DNA of 64,000 nt, taken from NCBI RefSeq assembly GCF_006715565.1, contig NZ_VFNL01000001.1, forward strand, positions 2,728,001-2,792,000, given 5' to 3'. The notes beneath the pieces are model-generated. The model did no database searches. It had not been told where the DNA came from and was given only the letters and a program-made list of their open reading frames with translations. This stretch comes from Microbacterium sp. SLBN-154. GTDB lineage: Bacteria > Actinomycetota > Actinomycetes > Actinomycetales > Microbacteriaceae. This document shows positions 1 through 11,539 of the stretch, piece after piece (position 1 is the first letter of the stretch; every line of letters begins with the position of its first letter). The translations under genes were made by a program, and so were the position numbers.

Positions 1-1548
1 CCCAACGAACGCAGTGCGCCCGGACTCGACATCAACGTTGCCGGCACTCGCGACCGTAGTCAGGTTGAGTCTGTAGTCCTTCCCTCGTGGTTTGACCCAA
101 TGTCCAGTCACCGCGATGCGTTCGCTTGGCCGCCAGTCAATGGCAATGGTTGACTCGGTGCCGTCTCCCAGCCATGAGGCAAGCTGATCGGCGTTCGGCA
201 CGAAAGGCGTCAGAAGTAGAAACCGCGTTTCCGCGCGCTCGCGCTTGAGGAGACCAAGAAGAAGTTCCAGCCGCGCGCCTCGTACGCCGTCCGCAATGTT
301 GTGAGCCTCGTCGACGACCACAAGCGATATCTCGCTGGCGGTGGGATGTTGCGCTTTGATGAGCAGGTCGAGCTTCTCCGGAGTGCTCACGAGGATGTCG
401 ACTTTGCTCCTTAGCAAAGAATCTTCCGTCGGGTCGAGCTCAAACACTGGGACTGCTGCTTCTACGACGAGATTGAGCGGCGCGAAGTCCTGGCGCAGCC
501 TCTGCGTGATTTGGTTGACGAGTGCTCGCGTGGGCACCACATACACGACCGTTGAGTCGGGATTGAGTGCGTGCGCTTGGATTATCGAGAACTCTGCGAT
601 GAGTGTCTTGCCCGCCGACGTCGGCATCTCGACGACAACAGCTCGTCGAGCCGGATCCAAGAGGTGTGAATCGATGGCTGCTCGCTGACTTGGCCAGAGC
701 TCGAGCAAAGGGTTCGGCCTCTCGGGAGAGGCGACAGAGCCAACGAAGTCACGAAGCGCCTTGCCCAGCCGCGTCGTCCCGGTCCAGATGCTGGTCTGTA
801 TCATCCGACCAGCCGCGGCCTGAATGAGATCTCCTAGAACTCCGAATATCGCGTCCGGTGCGAATCGACCAAGCTCGTTGCGGTTCCCCGCATGACGTTC
901 GAACTGAACCTGCACATTGGCGGGCTGTCCTGAGGCTGTGAACGTCGCGGTGAGATCGACAATCTTCGCGAGATTGAAACCCGACACGAGTTGCAAAGCC
1001 TCGGCAGCACCCACCGTCGATGCTTCGCTTGTTGCCTCGCTCGCCCGCTGATGCTCTTGCCGAAGCAGCGAGATCTCTTCCGCGGCTGCGCGGATGTCTT
1101 CCCAGCCGCCTGACCGACGCACCAGCAGGACGAAAGCGCGAACCGTTCGCACGAGTAGGCGACGACTGAGGACGTCCGACTCGGCTACCAGCTGTTCAAC
1201 CGGCGGCACCAGGTAGTCACGGAGAAGCATCAACACCTCCGCGCTACGGTTCGCGAGCACACCATCAGCGGCTAGCGAAGCGGCGGCGAGAAGTCCGTCC
1301 AAGCCGCTTGCGAGCGGCCGGTCACGCCGAAGAATAAAAGCACGGGTAAATAGGCTTACGCGCTCGCCAACGTCCTGAGCCGCAAGACCCAGGCTCTCTA
1401 CTACGGCCGCCACCACCTGACTTGCTTCGGACTCGACCGCAATGCCGACCTCGTCTGCGAGCGCTCGTGCAAGCAAGTACTCCTCGCGCGCATCCTGGAC
1501 GACGTCTTCGACGCCCTCATCGACCAGCAGCTGGGTGAAGGCTGTCAT
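1..1548 (-). CDS. SF2 DEAH-box helicase, HamB-like (partial, C-terminus beyond left edge)
   Basis: About 516 residues of an N-terminal helicase portion are visible on the minus strand; the gene continues past position 1. The ATG at 1548 overlaps the stop of the upstream nuclease-like gene by 4 nt (ATGA). Residues 1-290 form a helical N-terminal domain without a motif I recognise. It is followed by a Q-like segment (ELWPSQRAAI), Walker A PTSAGKT with the lysine at about residue 314, the motif Ia-like segment VVPTRALVNQI, the STPEKLD segment, and Walker B VVDEAH with the aspartate at about 413. These are the marks of a Ski2/DEAH superfamily 2 helicase. In the Hachiman defence system HamB is a large DEAH helicase encoded directly after HamA, and this pair has that order. 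The Hachiman assignment is inference; the helicase assignment is firm. Confidence 0.85.
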   Translation of the reverse strand, partial: MTAFTQLLVDEGVEDVVQDAREEYLLARALADEVGIAVESEASQVVAAVVESLGLAAQDVGERVSLFTRAFILRRDRPLASGLDGLLAAASLAADGVLANRSAEVLMLLRDYLVPPVEQLVAESDVLSRRLLVRTVRAFVLLVRRSGGWEDIRAAAEEISLLRQEHQRASEATSEASTVGAAEALQLVSGFNLAKIVDLTATFTASGQPANVQVQFERHAGNRNELGRFAPDAIFGVLGDLIQAAAGRMIQTSIWTGTTRLGKALRDFVGSVASPERPNPLLELWPSQRAAIDSHLLDPARRAVVVEMPTSAGKTLIAEFSIIQAHALNPDSTVVYVVPTRALVNQITQRLRQDFAPLNLVVEAAVPVFELDPTEDSLLRSKVDILVSTPEKLDLLIKAQHPTASEISLVVVDEAHNIADGVRGARLELLLGLLKRERAETRFLLLTPFVPNADQLASWLGDGTESTIAIDWRPSERIAVTGHWVKPRGKDYRLNLTTVASAGNVDVESGRTAFVG

Positions 1549-2363
1549 GCTGCCTGCTCCGCTGCTCGGGCGTACACGACCGCCGCGAAGTCCTCAAGCG
1601 TACCTGGTAACCGAATGACAGCGAACCTGATTGGCGACTGTCCGAACTCTTTTGAGGGATTAGCAAAGTTGCCGAAGTCGCTCGGCTTGTATGTGCCGGC
1701 GGCTCGCACGAGAACCGGAGCGACGGTCGGGGTTGGCGCTTTTGACAGGCCGTGCAGGAGGAGCGCACGGGCCGTTGCCTCTCTTGCCTCTGACTTCGCG
1801 TGCTTGAGGGCCCAGTGCAACTCACCCAGAACCGACTCTCGGTTGTTGAGTCTTCGCAAAGTCTCCGCATGCATGCTATCTCTTGCGGTGTGGACGACCG
1901 CCGGCGGGCTTGACGTTGAGGAAGACGCCTTGACCTCGGTGAGGACGACGGCCGAGTTCGGCGTGAGACCAAGAACATCCAGACCGCGTGATGGAAGTCC
2001 CGAGACTTCCTTGTTCCGGATCCGAGATGACGGAACGCTGAAGTTGTGGATCTGTTCGAGCACATATAGTGCGAGAACCTCAGCGACCTCGTTGCGCGGC
2101 ACTTGGAGATGCTTCGGCACCTTGCTTTGCGGGTCGACCTGCGGGATCACAGCGATCGCGACCTCGTCGATGACCTTCGCGATGGCTGACTCATCGCATA
2201 CGCTGTCCAGTCCTTTGGCCGCCTCCACCAGTGCGCTGCTAAGAGCGAGGTCATCAACATAGAGATCGCGAACGATTGACGCAAGCTCATCGACAAGGTT
2301 GTCATCGCTGGTGAGGTCGTAGCACGCGTACGTGTGTTCCCCGTTCACGGAGTTCTCAAGCAA
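1545..2363 (-). CDS. PD-(D/E)XK nuclease-like protein, HamA/DUF1837-like
   Basis: A 272-aa protein (TTG start at 2363) precedes and overlaps the helicase gene. The core signature is an acidic helix (NEVAEVL, residues 91-97), then GLPSRGLDV with D129, then VVLTEVKAS with E143 and K145. This E/D-x(n)-D-x(n)-E-x-K layout is the PD-(D/E)XK nuclease pattern. HamA of Hachiman is a DUF1837 nuclease of about this length with an ExK motif, kept inactive by HamB until damaged DNA is sensed. I infer the same role from motif, size and gene order. Start uncertainty: a strong Shine-Dalgarno GGAGGA lies 18 nt upstream of the TTG but only 6 nt upstream of an in-frame ATC ATC pair, so the N-terminus may be about 5 residues longer. 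Base composition is lower in GC than the rest of the window. Confidence 0.75.
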   Translation of the reverse strand: MLENSVNGEHTYACYDLTSDDNLVDELASIVRDLYVDDLALSSALVEAAKGLDSVCDESAIAKVIDEVAIAVIPQVDPQSKVPKHLQVPRNEVAEVLALYVLEQIHNFSVPSSRIRNKEVSGLPSRGLDVLGLTPNSAVVLTEVKASSSTSSPPAVVHTARDSMHAETLRRLNNRESVLGELHWALKHAKSEAREATARALLLHGLSKAPTPTVAPVLVRAAGTYKPSDFGNFANPSKEFGQSPIRFAVIRLPGTLEDFAAVVYARAAEQAA

Positions 2364-2627
2364 TGTGAATTCGATGATGACTGATCCTCCGACCCCGCCC
2401 GCCCAACCAGTCCAAGACGGTTGCCACCCGTCGCCGCTGGCAGATTATCAGGACGGGCAGACACGCGGAGACGACGCGCAGAGGCGGATGGCCTGCGGCT
2501 AGCGGAGCGATTGGGTTAGGCGGACGCGTTCCGTCCTCGCATGTCGGCAGCCGAAGTTTGCTCATCGCAACTGGTCCTGGTCTTGGGCCTACTTGGCCGC
2601 GCTGGGCCAGGATTGCTGAGCCGGTCG
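2364..2627. other. Intergenic upstream of the HamA-like gene
   Basis: This 264-nt stretch holds the Shine-Dalgarno GGAGGA (complement of 2385-2390) of the nuclease-like gene. It also has a small GGACG/CGTCC inverted repeat near 2522-2536 that could end the 59-aa HTH transcript. I see no further gene. Confidence 0.35.
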
Positions 2628-2807
2628 TCACGCGTCGACGCCAAAGGCACGCAGCAGGCCGGCGCGCGGGATCATCCGGCGTGGGCCGAGCTGGACCGTG
2701 GGGATGGTCCCGCTCTCGATGCCGAGCTTGATCGTGCGGTAGTCGACGCCGACGAGCTTGGCGGCATCCTTCATGGTCAGAGCGAGCGAGTTCGCGGACC
2801 TGTTCAT
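2628..2807 (-). CDS. Excisionase-like MerR-type HTH DNA-binding protein, 59 aa
   Basis: A short helix-turn-helix protein: the sequence LTMKDAAKLVGVDYRTIKLG, then SGTIPTVQLGPRRMIPRAGL, matches the excisionase/MerR-like winged HTH (helix, recognition helix DYRTIK, then the wing with GPRRMIPR). The start is ATG at 2807, preceded by AAAGGAG at 8 nt; a longer in-frame reading to 2873 would run through the palindromic operators and lacks such a site. It is divergent from the 204-aa gene at 2923, with paired palindromes between them, so autoregulation is likely. Such proteins direct excision or transcription in integrative elements, consistent with the accessory setting. No integrase is seen in the window. 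Confidence 0.6.
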   Translation of the reverse strand: MNRSANSLALTMKDAAKLVGVDYRTIKLGIESGTIPTVQLGPRRMIPRAGLLRAFGVDA

Positions 2808-2822
2808 AGCCTTCTCCTTTCC

Positions 2823-2894
2823 GTGAGCAATGCGTGACATCGCTTGCGCACACCGTACTCCTTTCGTGAGCAATGCGCGACATCAATTGCTCAC
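2823..2894. promoter_or_regulatory. Two tandem 29-bp imperfect palindromes (candidate operators)
   Basis: Unit 2 (2866-2894) is GTGAGCAAT, 11 nt, ATTGCTCAC, a perfect 9-bp inverted repeat. Unit 1 (2823-2851) is a degenerate copy (GTGAGCAAT, then GCTTGCGCAC), and the first 25 bases of the two units match at 22 positions. The period is 43 bp, about four helical turns. They lie between the divergent HTH genes and should bind one of the two products. Confidence 0.55.
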
Positions 2895-2922: not shown

Positions 2923-3537
2923 ATGGACGATCTTGTCGTCGAAGATGTCGACCCCGAACGCATCCTCGTCGGAGACGGGGTGCGCATGCCCACGCGATGG
3001 GATGCCCTCGTGACGGACGAGCCGAACTCGGTCGGTGCCATCCGCGTGCGCGTCGTCTACGACCAGCAGTTGCGACGGTCGGTCGCCGCATCCGTCCGAG
3101 TGGATCGATCGGGGGAGGGTGACGAGGTGACCGCGGCAGCGCTGCGCGACGTGAGCGTGCTGCAGATCGTCCAGCGGTCCGCGCTACGAGTCGTCACGGT
3201 GCAGCGCGATGAGGGGGAGCCGCTCTCTCTGACCGACTATCTCGCTGAGGTGCGGGCTCGCGCCTCGGATCGCGAGTTTGGTGAGACCGTCCTAGAGGCG
3301 GTGCGGCTGTACCGGATCGCGACGACCGTGAACATCGCGCCGCTCAAGCTCGTGTCGGACCAGCTCGGTGTCAGCGTCAGCACTGCGACGCGCATGATGG
3401 CGCGGGCGCGCGGGGCCGGGCTCGCGGAAGACCTCATCACCCGTGAGACCTACAACCGGATGCGGGCGGAGGACGAGGCGCAGTCCCGCCCGCACCAGAC
3501 GCCCAGCCACCCGTCCGGCCCGTCGATCGGGCGCTGA
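2923..3537 (+). CDS. Uncharacterised protein with C-terminal helix-turn-helix
   Basis: A 204-aa protein of unknown function. The N-terminal 110 residues are acidic and beta-rich (MDDLVVEDVDPERILVG onwards). The C-terminal half has helix-rich sequence ending in a clear HTH-like segment, LVSDQLGVSVSTATRMMARA, followed by ARGAGLAEDL, then a hydrophilic Pro/Ser/Arg tail. ATG at 2923 is chosen over earlier starts because those lie inside the palindromes. The gene is divergent from the excisionase-like HTH gene and is plausibly its partner regulator in an integrative element. I do not recognise a named family. Confidence 0.55.
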   Translation: MDDLVVEDVDPERILVGDGVRMPTRWDALVTDEPNSVGAIRVRVVYDQQLRRSVAASVRVDRSGEGDEVTAAALRDVSVLQIVQRSALRVVTVQRDEGEPLSLTDYLAEVRARASDREFGETVLEAVRLYRIATTVNIAPLKLVSDQLGVSVSTATRMMARARGAGLAEDLITRETYNRMRAEDEAQSRPHQTPSHPSGPSIGR

Positions 3538-4260
3538 CCGCAACTCGGCGCAGAAAATCAGCGTCTGAGCACTATGCCCTCCAAAGTCCGACATGCCGAA
3601 CAGAACGCTCATAGACACGTTCTTGGGTTAGCGCCCAATAATCATTTGCCCGCATCGTCGCCCGGCATGCCCTCGAACGCCGCTCCATGGCTGAGATTCT
3701 TGCCCGCAATTTGCCCGCATTCCATTCGCCGTTGGCTGTTTTCGGACGTAGCTCGATGTCGTCCCGTTCCCCAAAATCTGCGTAATTCCGCGCAACTTGC
3801 CGCTCGACGCTGGTATGCAAAATGCTCAAAACGTGTTCGAGTCCCTCCAGGGGCCTCCTTGACGATGCCCCACGTCATGCCTGCAGAGTCGCCGGAGCAG
3901 CCGTAAACGGAGCGGCGAACGCGCCCGGCGTCGCATTCGCCAGGAGGCTGTGGGGCCCGGAGCAACCGGTCGGACATGACGGTCACGTGCCGCCGCTACG
4001 CGAAGAACTGCTTGACGGAGCTGAAGTTACGGCCCCGGGTGACTAGACGCCCGACAACGCCGAACACTGCTCGCCTAACCGCTCCGAGTCCGATGAGTGG
4101 AAACCACGCCGTGATGCTCCCGACCAGAAGCTCAAGGAGCACCCGATGAGGGGGCCGAACCGGGCGCCCGAAGCTGCACCCCGACCCTCCCGGACATGTA
4201 TCGCCGATCGTCCACGTTGGGTTCGAGGCCGCACGCGCCGGCGCGTCGCCCGGTAGCTCA
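3538..4260. other. Gene-poor stretch with possible attachment-site remnant
   Basis: No convincing gene in about 720 nt. Visible elements are three copies of TTGCCCGCA (3646, 3700, 3711) and a tRNA T-arm-like string GTTCGAGTCCCTCC (near 3835-3848) without a complete cloverleaf. A minus-strand reading of about 118 codons (3996-4352) has a hydrophobic stretch but no ribosome binding site and covers the promoter of the next gene, so I do not call it. The mixture looks like the edge of an integrated element. Confidence 0.35.
3646..3719. repeat. Three TTGCCCGCA direct repeats
   Basis: Exact 9-mers occur at 3646-3654, 3700-3708 and 3711-3719, the last two only 11 bp apart. Short closely spaced direct repeats beside a tRNA-3'-end-like string are typical of integrase arm-type sites; here this is inference only. 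Confidence 0.35.
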
Positions 4261-4508: not shown

Positions 4509-6502
<1,994 letters not shown>

Positions 6503-9693: not shown

Positions 9694-10125
9694 ATGTTCA
9701 CCGTCACCGAAGTCGTCGTGATCGCGCGTTCGCGCGCCGACGTGTTCGCCTACCTCACCGACGCCGGTCGCCGGCCCGAGTGGGATGACACCGTCATCTC
9801 CGAAGCGCTGACCTCCCCGCCGCCGGTCGGAGTGGGGAGCACGATCAACAGCCGGATGCGCGTCATGGGCCGCGAAGTGGAGTTCGACTGGCGGGTCACC
9901 GAGTACGTGCCACCGGGGCGCATGGCCATCGCGAGCACTCGGGGCACGTTCCCGACATCCCTGCTGTTCGATCTGGCCGACCACGCCGCCGGAACGCGGG
10001 TCAGCGCCACCATCGACGGCGAGCCCTCGGGGATGCTCCGGCTGGTGGAACCGATGATCGAAGACACCATCCGCTCGACCCTGGCGACCGGTCTCGGTCG
10101 CGTCGTCCGCATCCTGGAGGCGTGA
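9694..10125 (+). CDS. SRPBCC (START/polyketide cyclase-like) family protein
   Basis: 143 aa with the helix-grip fold pattern: TEVVVIARSRADVFAYLTDA at the N-terminus, PEWDDTVISEA, a central strand set, and a long C-terminal helix (EPMIEDTIRSTLATGLGRVV). The fold binds hydrophobic ligands; the substrate cannot be read from sequence. It lies 19 nt after the PEP-mutase-like gene and is probably cotranscribed. Confidence 0.75.
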   Translation: MFTVTEVVVIARSRADVFAYLTDAGRRPEWDDTVISEALTSPPPVGVGSTINSRMRVMGREVEFDWRVTEYVPPGRMAIASTRGTFPTSLLFDLADHAAGTRVSATIDGEPSGMLRLVEPMIEDTIRSTLATGLGRVVRILEA

Positions 10126-10201
10126 CCCGGTCTACCGGGATCATGGCCGCCGTCGAGACATCCTCGGGCACGGGATGACGCAGATGCGCCATCATGGAGG
10201 G

Positions 10202-10372
10202 GTGACCTCCCGCCTTCCCCTCCTGCTCTCCCTGGCGTCGCTGGGCATCCTGTTCCTGTCGATCGTCTTCGTCTTCCTGCTGGTGATCGGCAGCTACTTC
10301 GGCATCGTGCCCTTCACCGTCGACCACGAGTCGGCCGAGTCGCTCGCCCACGCGCTCTCTCTCGTCGCCTGA
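10202..10372 (+). CDS. Small single-span membrane protein, 56 aa
   Basis: GTG at 10202 gives a protein with one or two hydrophobic helices (LLLSLASLGILFLSIVFVFL, then LVIGSYFGIV) and an acidic C-terminus. A weak CATCAT box ends 6 nt before the GTG, compatible with a leaderless transcript. It resembles in layout the 88-aa membrane protein at 34216. No function recognised. Confidence 0.45.
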   Translation: MTSRLPLLLSLASLGILFLSIVFVFLLVIGSYFGIVPFTVDHESAESLAHALSLVA

Positions 10373-10417
10373 CCGGGGCCTGATCCGTCGCCTCTGGTCG
10401 CGGCACCGCGGCGCGGG

Positions 10418-10423
10418 TAGCGT
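10418..10423 (+). promoter_or_regulatory. Leaderless -10 box TAGCGT
   Basis: TAGCGT, 6 nt, ATG at 10430. Confidence 0.55.
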
Positions 10424-10429
10424 CGGGCC

Positions 10430-11155
10430 ATGACCGAGGATCGCGCGACGACAGGGCATCCCAACGAGCCGCACCGGCCCGGGCTCGCCCAGCGACTGAA
10501 CGGACTTCGGGCCGGTGTTCTCGGTGCCAATGACGGCATCGTCTCCACCGCGGCGGTGGTCGTGGGTGTGGCAGGCGCGACCGCGGAGGTCGGTCCGGTC
10601 CTGCTCGCGGGCGCCGCGGCACTCGTCGGCGGCGCGGTCTCGATGGCGCTCGGCGAGTACGTGTCGGTGTCGAGTCAGCGCGACAGCGAGCATGCGCTGA
10701 TCGAAAAGGAGCGCCGCGAACTCGCCGCCGACCCCGAGGGCGAGTTCGCCGAACTCGTGGGCCTGTACCGCGCCCAGGGGCTGAGCGAGCAGACGGCCAC
10801 CGCGGTCGCGAAGGAGCTGACCGAGAGCGATGCCCTCGCCGCTCACCTCTCGATCGAGCTGAACATCGATCAGAGCGACGTGGTGAGCCCCTGGTCGGCG
10901 GCCATCGCCTCGGCGGTCGCCTTCACGATCGGCGCGCTCCTCCCCCTCGCCACGATCCTCTTCGTCCCCCACCCCGCCCGCATCTGGCTCACCTTCGCGA
11001 GTGTGCTCGTCGCCCTGGCGATCACCGGGTATGTCGCGGCGTGGATCGGCGGCGCCCGTCGACTGCGTGCCGTCGTCCGCACGGTCGTGGGTGGCGCCCT
11101 CGCACTCGGCGCCACCTTCCTCATCGGTACGCTGCTGGGCACCGGCGCGGCCTGA
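10430..11155 (+). CDS. VIT1/CCC1 transporter family protein
   Basis: 241 aa, five predicted membrane helices. The N-terminal signature RAGVLGANDGIVSTAAVVVG and the second GAVSMALGEYVSVSSQ are those of the VIT1/CCC1 family (Fe2+/Mn2+ export or compartment transport). A cytoplasmic helical metal-binding insert (residues about 85-150, rich in Glu: QRDSEHALIEKERRE, AVAKELTESDALAAH) separates helices 2 and 3. Length is normal. Leaderless start; monocistronic. Role: probably removal of excess iron or manganese at the cytoplasmic membrane. Confidence 0.88.
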   Translation: MTEDRATTGHPNEPHRPGLAQRLNGLRAGVLGANDGIVSTAAVVVGVAGATAEVGPVLLAGAAALVGGAVSMALGEYVSVSSQRDSEHALIEKERRELAADPEGEFAELVGLYRAQGLSEQTATAVAKELTESDALAAHLSIELNIDQSDVVSPWSAAIASAVAFTIGALLPLATILFVPHPARIWLTFASVLVALAITGYVAAWIGGARRLRAVVRTVVGGALALGATFLIGTLLGTGAA

Positions 11156-11260
11156 CCGCTGCGGGCGGATCATGCCACACCGGCGCGGGAAGCGAAAGGG
11201 AGCAGTCAGAACGGAGGAAAGGCGCTTCACTGGTTTCCCAGGCAGAAGGACGAGGACGCC

Positions 11261-11539
11261 ATGCTGACCGAGTCACCGCGCACATCGCCGGAGCCGTTCG
11301 ACAGAGAATCGTTCGGTGCAGACCAGTTCGAAATGGTGCGGCTTGCGGCCGGAGGCTGGGTCATCACCGATCTCGCCCTGCCCCACGACGATCCGGCCTG
11401 TCTTCTCGCGTACGTGCAGGAGGACGGAGCGCGATTCGAGGTCGTGTGGGTCCAGGCGCCGGTGCGGACGGGATGGTTCGACTCCCTCGACGCGATCCTG
11501 GCCGAGGCTCGCAGCCGCCGGCACCGCCGCGTCGCCTGA
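11261..11539 (+). CDS. Hypothetical protein, 92 aa
   Basis: Soluble small protein with alternating strands (FEMVRLAAGGWVITDLALP, CLLAYVQEDGARFEVVWV) and a basic end (ARSRRHRRVA). ATG at 11261 has a weak AAGGACGAGGA upstream. No family recognised; codon usage and GC fit the window, so probably real. Confidence 0.45.
   Translation: MLTESPRTSPEPFDRESFGADQFEMVRLAAGGWVITDLALPHDDPACLLAYVQEDGARFEVVWVQAPVRTGWFDSLDAILAEARSRRHRRVA

Follow-up and report, generated by a model that had tools for sequence, protein, structure and literature searches.

Two adjacent genes at the left edge of the window, which is the whole 64,000-nt stretch of Microbacterium sp. SLBN-154 analysed here (G000:C1:2728001-2792000, G000:C1 being contig NZ_VFNL01000001.1), are best explained as encoding a Hachiman-type defence complex that would work as proposed below. 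A probability of roughly 0.8 was given to this reading. The two genes encode homologues of the nuclease HamA and the helicase HamB, with the catalytic residues, the helicase motifs, the N-terminal helicase domain, the gene order and the gene overlap retained, and they are located in a defence island. The pair is already catalogued in PADLOC as the candidate system PDC-M23, under a name without a Hachiman link, and this link is made here. The name 'PDC-M23' was absent from the main texts of the literature searched. The original prediction, a divergent Hachiman-type or sister system proposed from the sequence, agrees with the fold search, the profile comparison, the tree and the gene order.

The gene pair

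The nuclease gene (hamA-like, PDC-M23A) is located at 1545..2363 on the minus strand and encodes 272 amino acids (aa) counted from a TTG codon. As predicted, this open reading frame (ORF) contains D129 (1977-1979), E143 (1935-1937) and K145 (1929-1931); E95 is at 2079-2081. The helicase gene (hamB-like, PDC-M23B) follows on the same strand and is cut by the window edge, with codons 1-516 of 1036 at 1..1548 and the remainder at G000:C1:2726438-2728000, left of the window. When the sequence left of position 1 was recovered, the helicase frame was open to 1036 aa with no internal stops (L003:8438-11548(-), G000:C1:2726438-2729548). The motifs reported earlier were both found, motif I (PTSAGKT) at residues 309-315 (604..624, minus strand) and motif II (VDEAH) at residues 412-416 (301..315, minus strand), as was the 4-nt overlap of the two genes, at the ATGA of 1545..1548 (minus strand).

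The start codon of the nuclease is uncertain from the sequence, and may be either a nonstandard ATC or a more distant TTG. The ATC at 2376-2378 is 7 nt past a GGAGG at 2386-2390 (together 2376..2390, minus strand), aligns with the ATG of the closest relative (L013), and might be the true start. The nearest in-frame standard start, the TTG at 2363, is 22 nt from the GGAGG. An ATC in the place of the relative's ATG could also reflect a nuclease start that was lost by mutation, leaving a decayed and silent remnant. This was considered improbable, as neither frame is interrupted, the catalytic motif of the nuclease and the motifs of the helicase are intact, and either the TTG or the ATC could act as a weak start.

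Similarity to HamA and HamB

Both genes of the window pair resemble the PDC-M23 entry (PADLOC-DB 2.0.0, PDLC04527-04532). The helicase matched PDLC04531 with 731 bits over nearly its full length (residues 59-1030), whereas the nuclease models matched the window protein weakly (PDC-M23A, 33.7 bits). The HamA model of PADLOC matched the nuclease with 30.2 bits (E=6.7e-8), a result in line with the predicted relation to DUF1837/HamA. When the single nuclease sequence was searched against the PDB, the only matches up to E=10 were two HamA chains (E=0.075 and 0.078). A profile of 12 PDC-M23A proteins matched HamA chains with E=0.00077 and 0.0014, the next match being at 0.11, and the comparison of the nuclease profile with the HamA profile gave E=8.7e-9, with 16% identity in the alignment.

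The structures of both proteins were predicted, that of the helicase for its N-terminal half. In a fold search of 350,542 PDB chains, HamA ranked first for the nuclease and HamB for the helicase, as expected from the original prediction. The predicted nuclease model thus has the HamA nuclease fold that is characteristic of Hachiman in the broad sense. PDB 8zue, which we take to be AbpAB, ranked second among the VIA matches of the nuclease.

Residues E95, G127, D129 and K145 were invariant in all 18 aligned HamA/PDC-M23A proteins, with E143 replaced by Q in three Rhizobiaceae rows. Across the 12 M23 loci, D129 and K145 were present in every locus, E143 in nine and Q in three. The D-QxK form in place of D-ExK was seen in the Rhizobiaceae PDC-M23A proteins of L016-L018, and HamC is present at two of these three loci. 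A match of the nuclease to HEAT repeats (Pfam, 16.6 bits versus a cut-off of 27.7) was taken as chance.

For the helicase, the best HamB model in PADLOC scored 217 bits. Among the best 25 of the 52 PADLOC families for this protein, the helicases BrxH (59.5 bits) and SngC (79.7 bits) were far below PDC-M23, and an identity as a BREX or Shango helicase was rejected. The C-terminus of the helicase had been seen as a place where a different known system might show, and its best match was PDC-M23, followed by HamB models. The helicase profile matched the type I HamB profile with E=2e-86, M23B columns 128-1065 being aligned with HamB columns 102-1049 of 1167.

The N-terminal domain of the helicase was all-helical by secondary structure (residues 57-280; 709..1380, minus strand) and aligned with the HamA-binding helical bundle (NAH) of HamB; it is therefore not the new module that had been suspected. 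In the VIA comparison the three HamB chains aligned over 392-429 residues, and the other 47 rows listed over 189-216. The predicted local distance difference test (pLDDT) value in the N-terminal model was below 50 for residues 1-61. The helicase thus combines a HamB-type N-terminal helical domain with a Ski2-like DEAH core, as Hachiman helicases in the broad sense do.

Distribution and neighbours of PDC-M23 loci

Twelve loci in which the helicase matched over most of its length were classed as PDC-M23. These were the window, L004-L007 from Firmicutes-type metagenome-assembled genomes (MAGs), L012 and L013 from the phylum of the window, L016-L018 from Rhizobiaceae plasmids, and L031 and L032 from viral-collection contigs. 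As L005/L006 and L016/L018 are near-copies, the set amounts to about ten independent loci. The MAG scan gave eight loci; four of them, L008-L011, matched only in part (24-28%) and were taken as AbpB-like. From the 37 loci of the viral-collection scan, L031 and L032 alone were classed as PDC-M23. PDC-M23B was the best PADLOC model for all eight helicases scanned (window, L004, L005, L012, L013, L016, L031 and L032; the scan left out L006, L007, L017 and L018). In all 12 loci the nuclease gene was directly upstream of the helicase gene on the same strand, with an overlap of 4-77 nt. The window pair therefore has both the predicted hamA-then-hamB order and the adjacency of PDC-M23A and PDC-M23B.

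The system is rare in the genomes sampled. With its own genome counted, the nuclease search gave one positive genome among 398 of the family; the helicase search gave one among 394 of the class, and the helicase model three among 396 of the phylum. Among 123 matching plasmid records, 80% of the helicase was covered by one place in two records and 77% in a third; none of the five matching phage records had a full-length match (80% coverage). This rarity, together with the location within a mobile island that carries defence genes, makes a Hel308/Ski2-type helicase-nuclease with a repair or housekeeping role very unlikely, even though the helicase has a Ski2-like core and, at the sequence level, matches Hel308 and Brr2 no worse than HamB.

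The neighbours of the M23 pairs varied by locus and included restriction-modification (RM), BREX, CBASS (by annotation) and HamC genes. In L031 (568-10014), the pair is located between HsdM and HsdR with a few-base overlap with each, and in L032 (750-6886) it follows shortly after BrxL. Such arrangements, and the type I RM genes of the window's own island at about 3-10 kb from the pair, might indicate that the pair serves restriction or BREX operons by processing their DNA ends, and is an accessory and not a stand-alone system. This was judged to be improbable, because the window pair is opposite in strand to the RM genes, with a reverse transcriptase (RT) gene between them, and because the neighbours change from locus to locus. 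The genes behind the pairs in L004 (5423-11194) and L006 (9761-14402) resemble type III CRISPR (Cmr/RAMP), as judged by eye.

HamC (DUF3223) is the defining gene of type II Hachiman, and a locus of this type gave E. coli protection against phages (PMC8565338). In L016 the gene located 4 nt after the helicase gene matched PADLOC HamC2 (E=7e-85) and Pfam DUF3223, and in L018 the HamC gene behind the pair was 91.6% identical to that of L016. No HamC was present among the annotated neighbours of L017, the third Rhizobiaceae M23 locus. Three other HamC matches (of 32 records) were followed: those of L100 and L102 are directly behind DUF1837 and helicase genes, and that of L101 is not. For the window pair, no HamC gene was present in the list of ORFs of at least 150 aa; a dedicated HamC search was not made there.

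Helicase phylogeny and comparison with known systems

Core identity to the window helicase was 36-57% within M23, 26.6-34.4% for 12 type I-like rows, 19.3-23.1% for eight AbpB-like rows and 21.1% for the outgroup Lhr. As the Lhr value is no lower than those of the AbpB-like rows, identity alone cannot place the latter. L018, a near-copy of L016, was omitted from the trees and from the residue-count comparison. In the first tree, with Lhr as outgroup, the 11 M23 rows formed one group (94/92); the root and the position of L019 were unsure. L019, which was put with the type I-like rows, stood beside the outgroup in this tree, and its score for PDC-M23B (200 bits) was slightly above that for HamB (186 bits). 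For the second tree, five long-branched rows (L019, Lhr, AbpB_K12, L039 and L033) were dropped and L100 and L102, classed as type II by annotation and HamC, were added. In this tree, which is in effect unrooted, M23 was recovered with 99/99, and M23 plus type I was split from the type II/AbpB-like rows with 100/100.

The window helicase has 308 residues before motif I and 364 after motif VI. The corresponding values were 308-354 and 352-370 in the 11 M23 rows, 293-331 and 449-499 in the 12 type I-like rows, and 122-168 and 301-346 in the eight AbpB-like rows; both type II rows had 169 and 350. By these residue counts, M23 pairs the long front of type I with the short tail of type II.

Type I Hachiman (HamAB of E. 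coli ECOR31, PDB 8vx9/8vxa/8vxy), as described in PMC12278908, shares with the window pair the nuclease fold, the D-ExK residues, the gene order and overlap, and a Ski2-like helicase carrying an N-terminal helical domain. It differs in its longer helicase tail and in the low identity of the nucleases. Type II (HamAB plus HamC; PMC8565338) is similar in the HamC genes behind the M23 pairs of L016 and L018 and in the short helicase tail, but its helicases in L100 and L102 have 868 aa and fall outside the M23 plus type I group, that of L100 having 24.7% core identity to the window. AbpAB of E. coli K-12 (abpA/abpB; PMC10732053) likewise combines a HamA-like domain with a Ski2-like helicase. AbpA, however, carries an additional Cap4-like nuclease at its N-terminus, and the residues of its HamA site are catalytically inactive (PMC12278908); AbpB has 729 aa and 20.8% core identity to the window. 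The authors of AbpAB doubted its equivalence to Hachiman (PMC10732053).

Points against the assignment

Several results weigh against the Hachiman assignment. The Pfam HamA family PF08878 (formerly DUF1837) matched the nuclease only with E=2.3e-4 and 21.5 bits, under the gathering score of 25, the NCBIfam scan gave no match to the nuclease, and the confidence of the nuclease model was low (pLDDT 51). At the sequence level, Brr2-type helicases are at least as close to the helicase core as HamB is. The single helicase sequence matched ASCC3 (3e-38) about as well as HamB (3.9e-38) in the PDB, and the helicase profile matched SLH1 (3.2e-85) above HamB (1.4e-67, rank 12); these PDB searches are carried by the Ski2-like core, and Brr2-type proteins have two helicase cassettes. 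The VIA Z score of HamB (22.4) was likewise close to that of Brr2 (23.0), in listed rows that barely test the N-terminal part.

The M23 helicase tail is about 80-150 residues shorter than that of type I, and a C-terminal stretch of HamB is missing. The tail length and the end of the profile alignment at column 1049 of 1167 show that this stretch is missing from M23, and it presumably corresponds to the C-terminal OB-like barrel of type I HamB. In the trees, the approximately unbiased (AU) test kept a tree uniting the 20 other Hachiman/AbpB-like rows without M23 (p=0.071). The split of M23 plus type I from the type II/AbpB-like rows was flagged as long branches meeting, with the root chosen by the analyst, and type I HamB was weakly supported as one clade beside M23 (59/20). 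HamC was seen at only two M23 loci, L016 and L018, both related Rhizobiaceae plasmid loci, and experiments on a PDC-M23 pair were not found in the main texts of the literature searched.

Because the nuclease scored under the Pfam cut-off and the helicase is shorter than type I in its tail, the pair was placed as a divergent relative, possibly of a third type, rather than assigned to type I or type II. It might instead be a sister system that has ancestry and parts in common with Hachiman but works differently, being triggered by something else (e.g. modified DNA or a phage protein) and using a nuclease that attacks only the invading DNA or is a nickase. The separate clade and PADLOC model, the shorter helicase C-terminus and the D-QxK residues in 3 of 12 loci, by which the M23 nuclease chemistry may have drifted, are concordant with such a system. 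Nevertheless, the pair has the N-terminal domain, nuclease fold and gene order of Hachiman, and two of the M23 pairs have HamC as a neighbour; a different way of working was therefore considered unlikely, though less so than a remnant or an RM/BREX accessory.

Proposed mechanism and significance

According to PMC12278908, HamB senses 3' DNA ends, its ATP-driven motion acts on HamA via the N-terminal domain, and the DNA of both phage and host is degraded by HamA; Hachiman has been proposed to sense genome damage itself. As the corresponding parts of this solved system are present in M23, a similar mechanism is proposed. The helicase would hold the nuclease via its N-terminal helical domain and survey DNA. 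A free 3' end, or replication damage caused by an infecting phage, would be the trigger, and the ATP-driven movement of the helicase would then free or activate the PD-(D/E)XK nuclease. Degradation of phage and host DNA would follow, and the infection would end by abortive death. Complex formation, sensing of DNA damage, indiscriminate DNA degradation and phage defence are thus predicted by analogy with the E. coli system.

The rank of M23 is less certain than its kind. PDC-M23 could be a third Hachiman type beside types I and II, one that keeps the HamA-holding N-terminal domain, drops the C-terminal barrel, can substitute for HamAB next to HamC, and has been incorporated into type I RM operons and placed near BREX genes. 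In that case the genome-integrity alarm would be a module portable among defence systems, and the D-QxK lineage may have an altered cleavage chemistry. This proposal is tentative, with the odds slightly against it. If true, a further divergent Hachiman type would separate the essential parts (the N-terminal docking domain and D-ExK) from the dispensable one (the C-terminal stretch). The HamC genes beside two M23 pairs offer a direct genetic test of the role of HamC, and a testable mechanism is now attached to the PDC-M23 catalogue entry.

The island at the tRNA-Arg(CCT) site

The pair is part of a 19.2-kb island bounded by att copies at a tRNA-Arg(CCT) gene (G000:C1:2712584-2712656). The attR site, an exact 20-bp copy of the 3' end of this tRNA gene, is at 3835..3854 (plus strand), and attL is at G000:C1:2712635-2712654. 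The island contains genes for a McrB-like AAA protein, McrC, two HsdM, HsdS, HsdR, a 277-aa protein, a retron-like RT, the M23 pair, an excisionase-like helix-turn-helix (HTH) protein and a 204-aa protein. Of the arguments for an island origin in the original prediction, the HTH gene does lie in the island, and the GC content of the pair is 60-63%, compared with 70-73% in the window at 7-10 kb and 63-72% on the left side beyond the island. The IS21 genes istB/istA (4509-6502), which had also been cited, are outside the island end at 3835-3854. The tyrosine integrase family PF00589 had four matches in this genome, all of them outside the island.

A second att end was observed 21-38 kb from the tRNA gene on the same contig in 4 of 38 other genomes of the genus (G1141, G1148, G1150 and G1159). 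Three of these islands were read over 19.9 kb each (L097, L098 and L099). Homologues of the 204-aa protein (2923..3537, plus strand) were present near the att end in all three, in L097 for the last 86 residues only. The 81-aa HTH_17/excisionase-like gene (2628..2873, minus strand) had homologues in L098 and L099, and none was found in L097. Because two of the three sibling islands carry these homologues next to this att site, the HTH gene was assigned to the island and not to the pair. Among ten ORFs chosen across the three islands, L097 had TrwC relaxase, GmrSD, DndB-like and methylase genes, L098 had AAA and Schlafen-type helicase genes, and L099 had AAA, cytosine methylase and integrase genes. 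The tRNA-Arg(CCT) site is an integration hotspot of the genus, with a cargo that includes varied defence genes.

Further observations were made on the island left of the window. Around the RT gene (L003:5500-8600), Rfam gave no match up to E=1. The retron-like RT gene (L003:5637-7513, G000:C1:2723637-2725513) matched the best PADLOC retron RT model with 130 bits. The 277-aa protein encoded ahead of it is without a Pfam family; its 'SALAMADYLLY' stretch recalls, in our view, DUF3800, as in type VII retrons. The two HsdM genes of the island are different from each other and are arranged in tandem (L002:8463-9962 and 9944-11452) before a single HsdS and a single HsdR gene.
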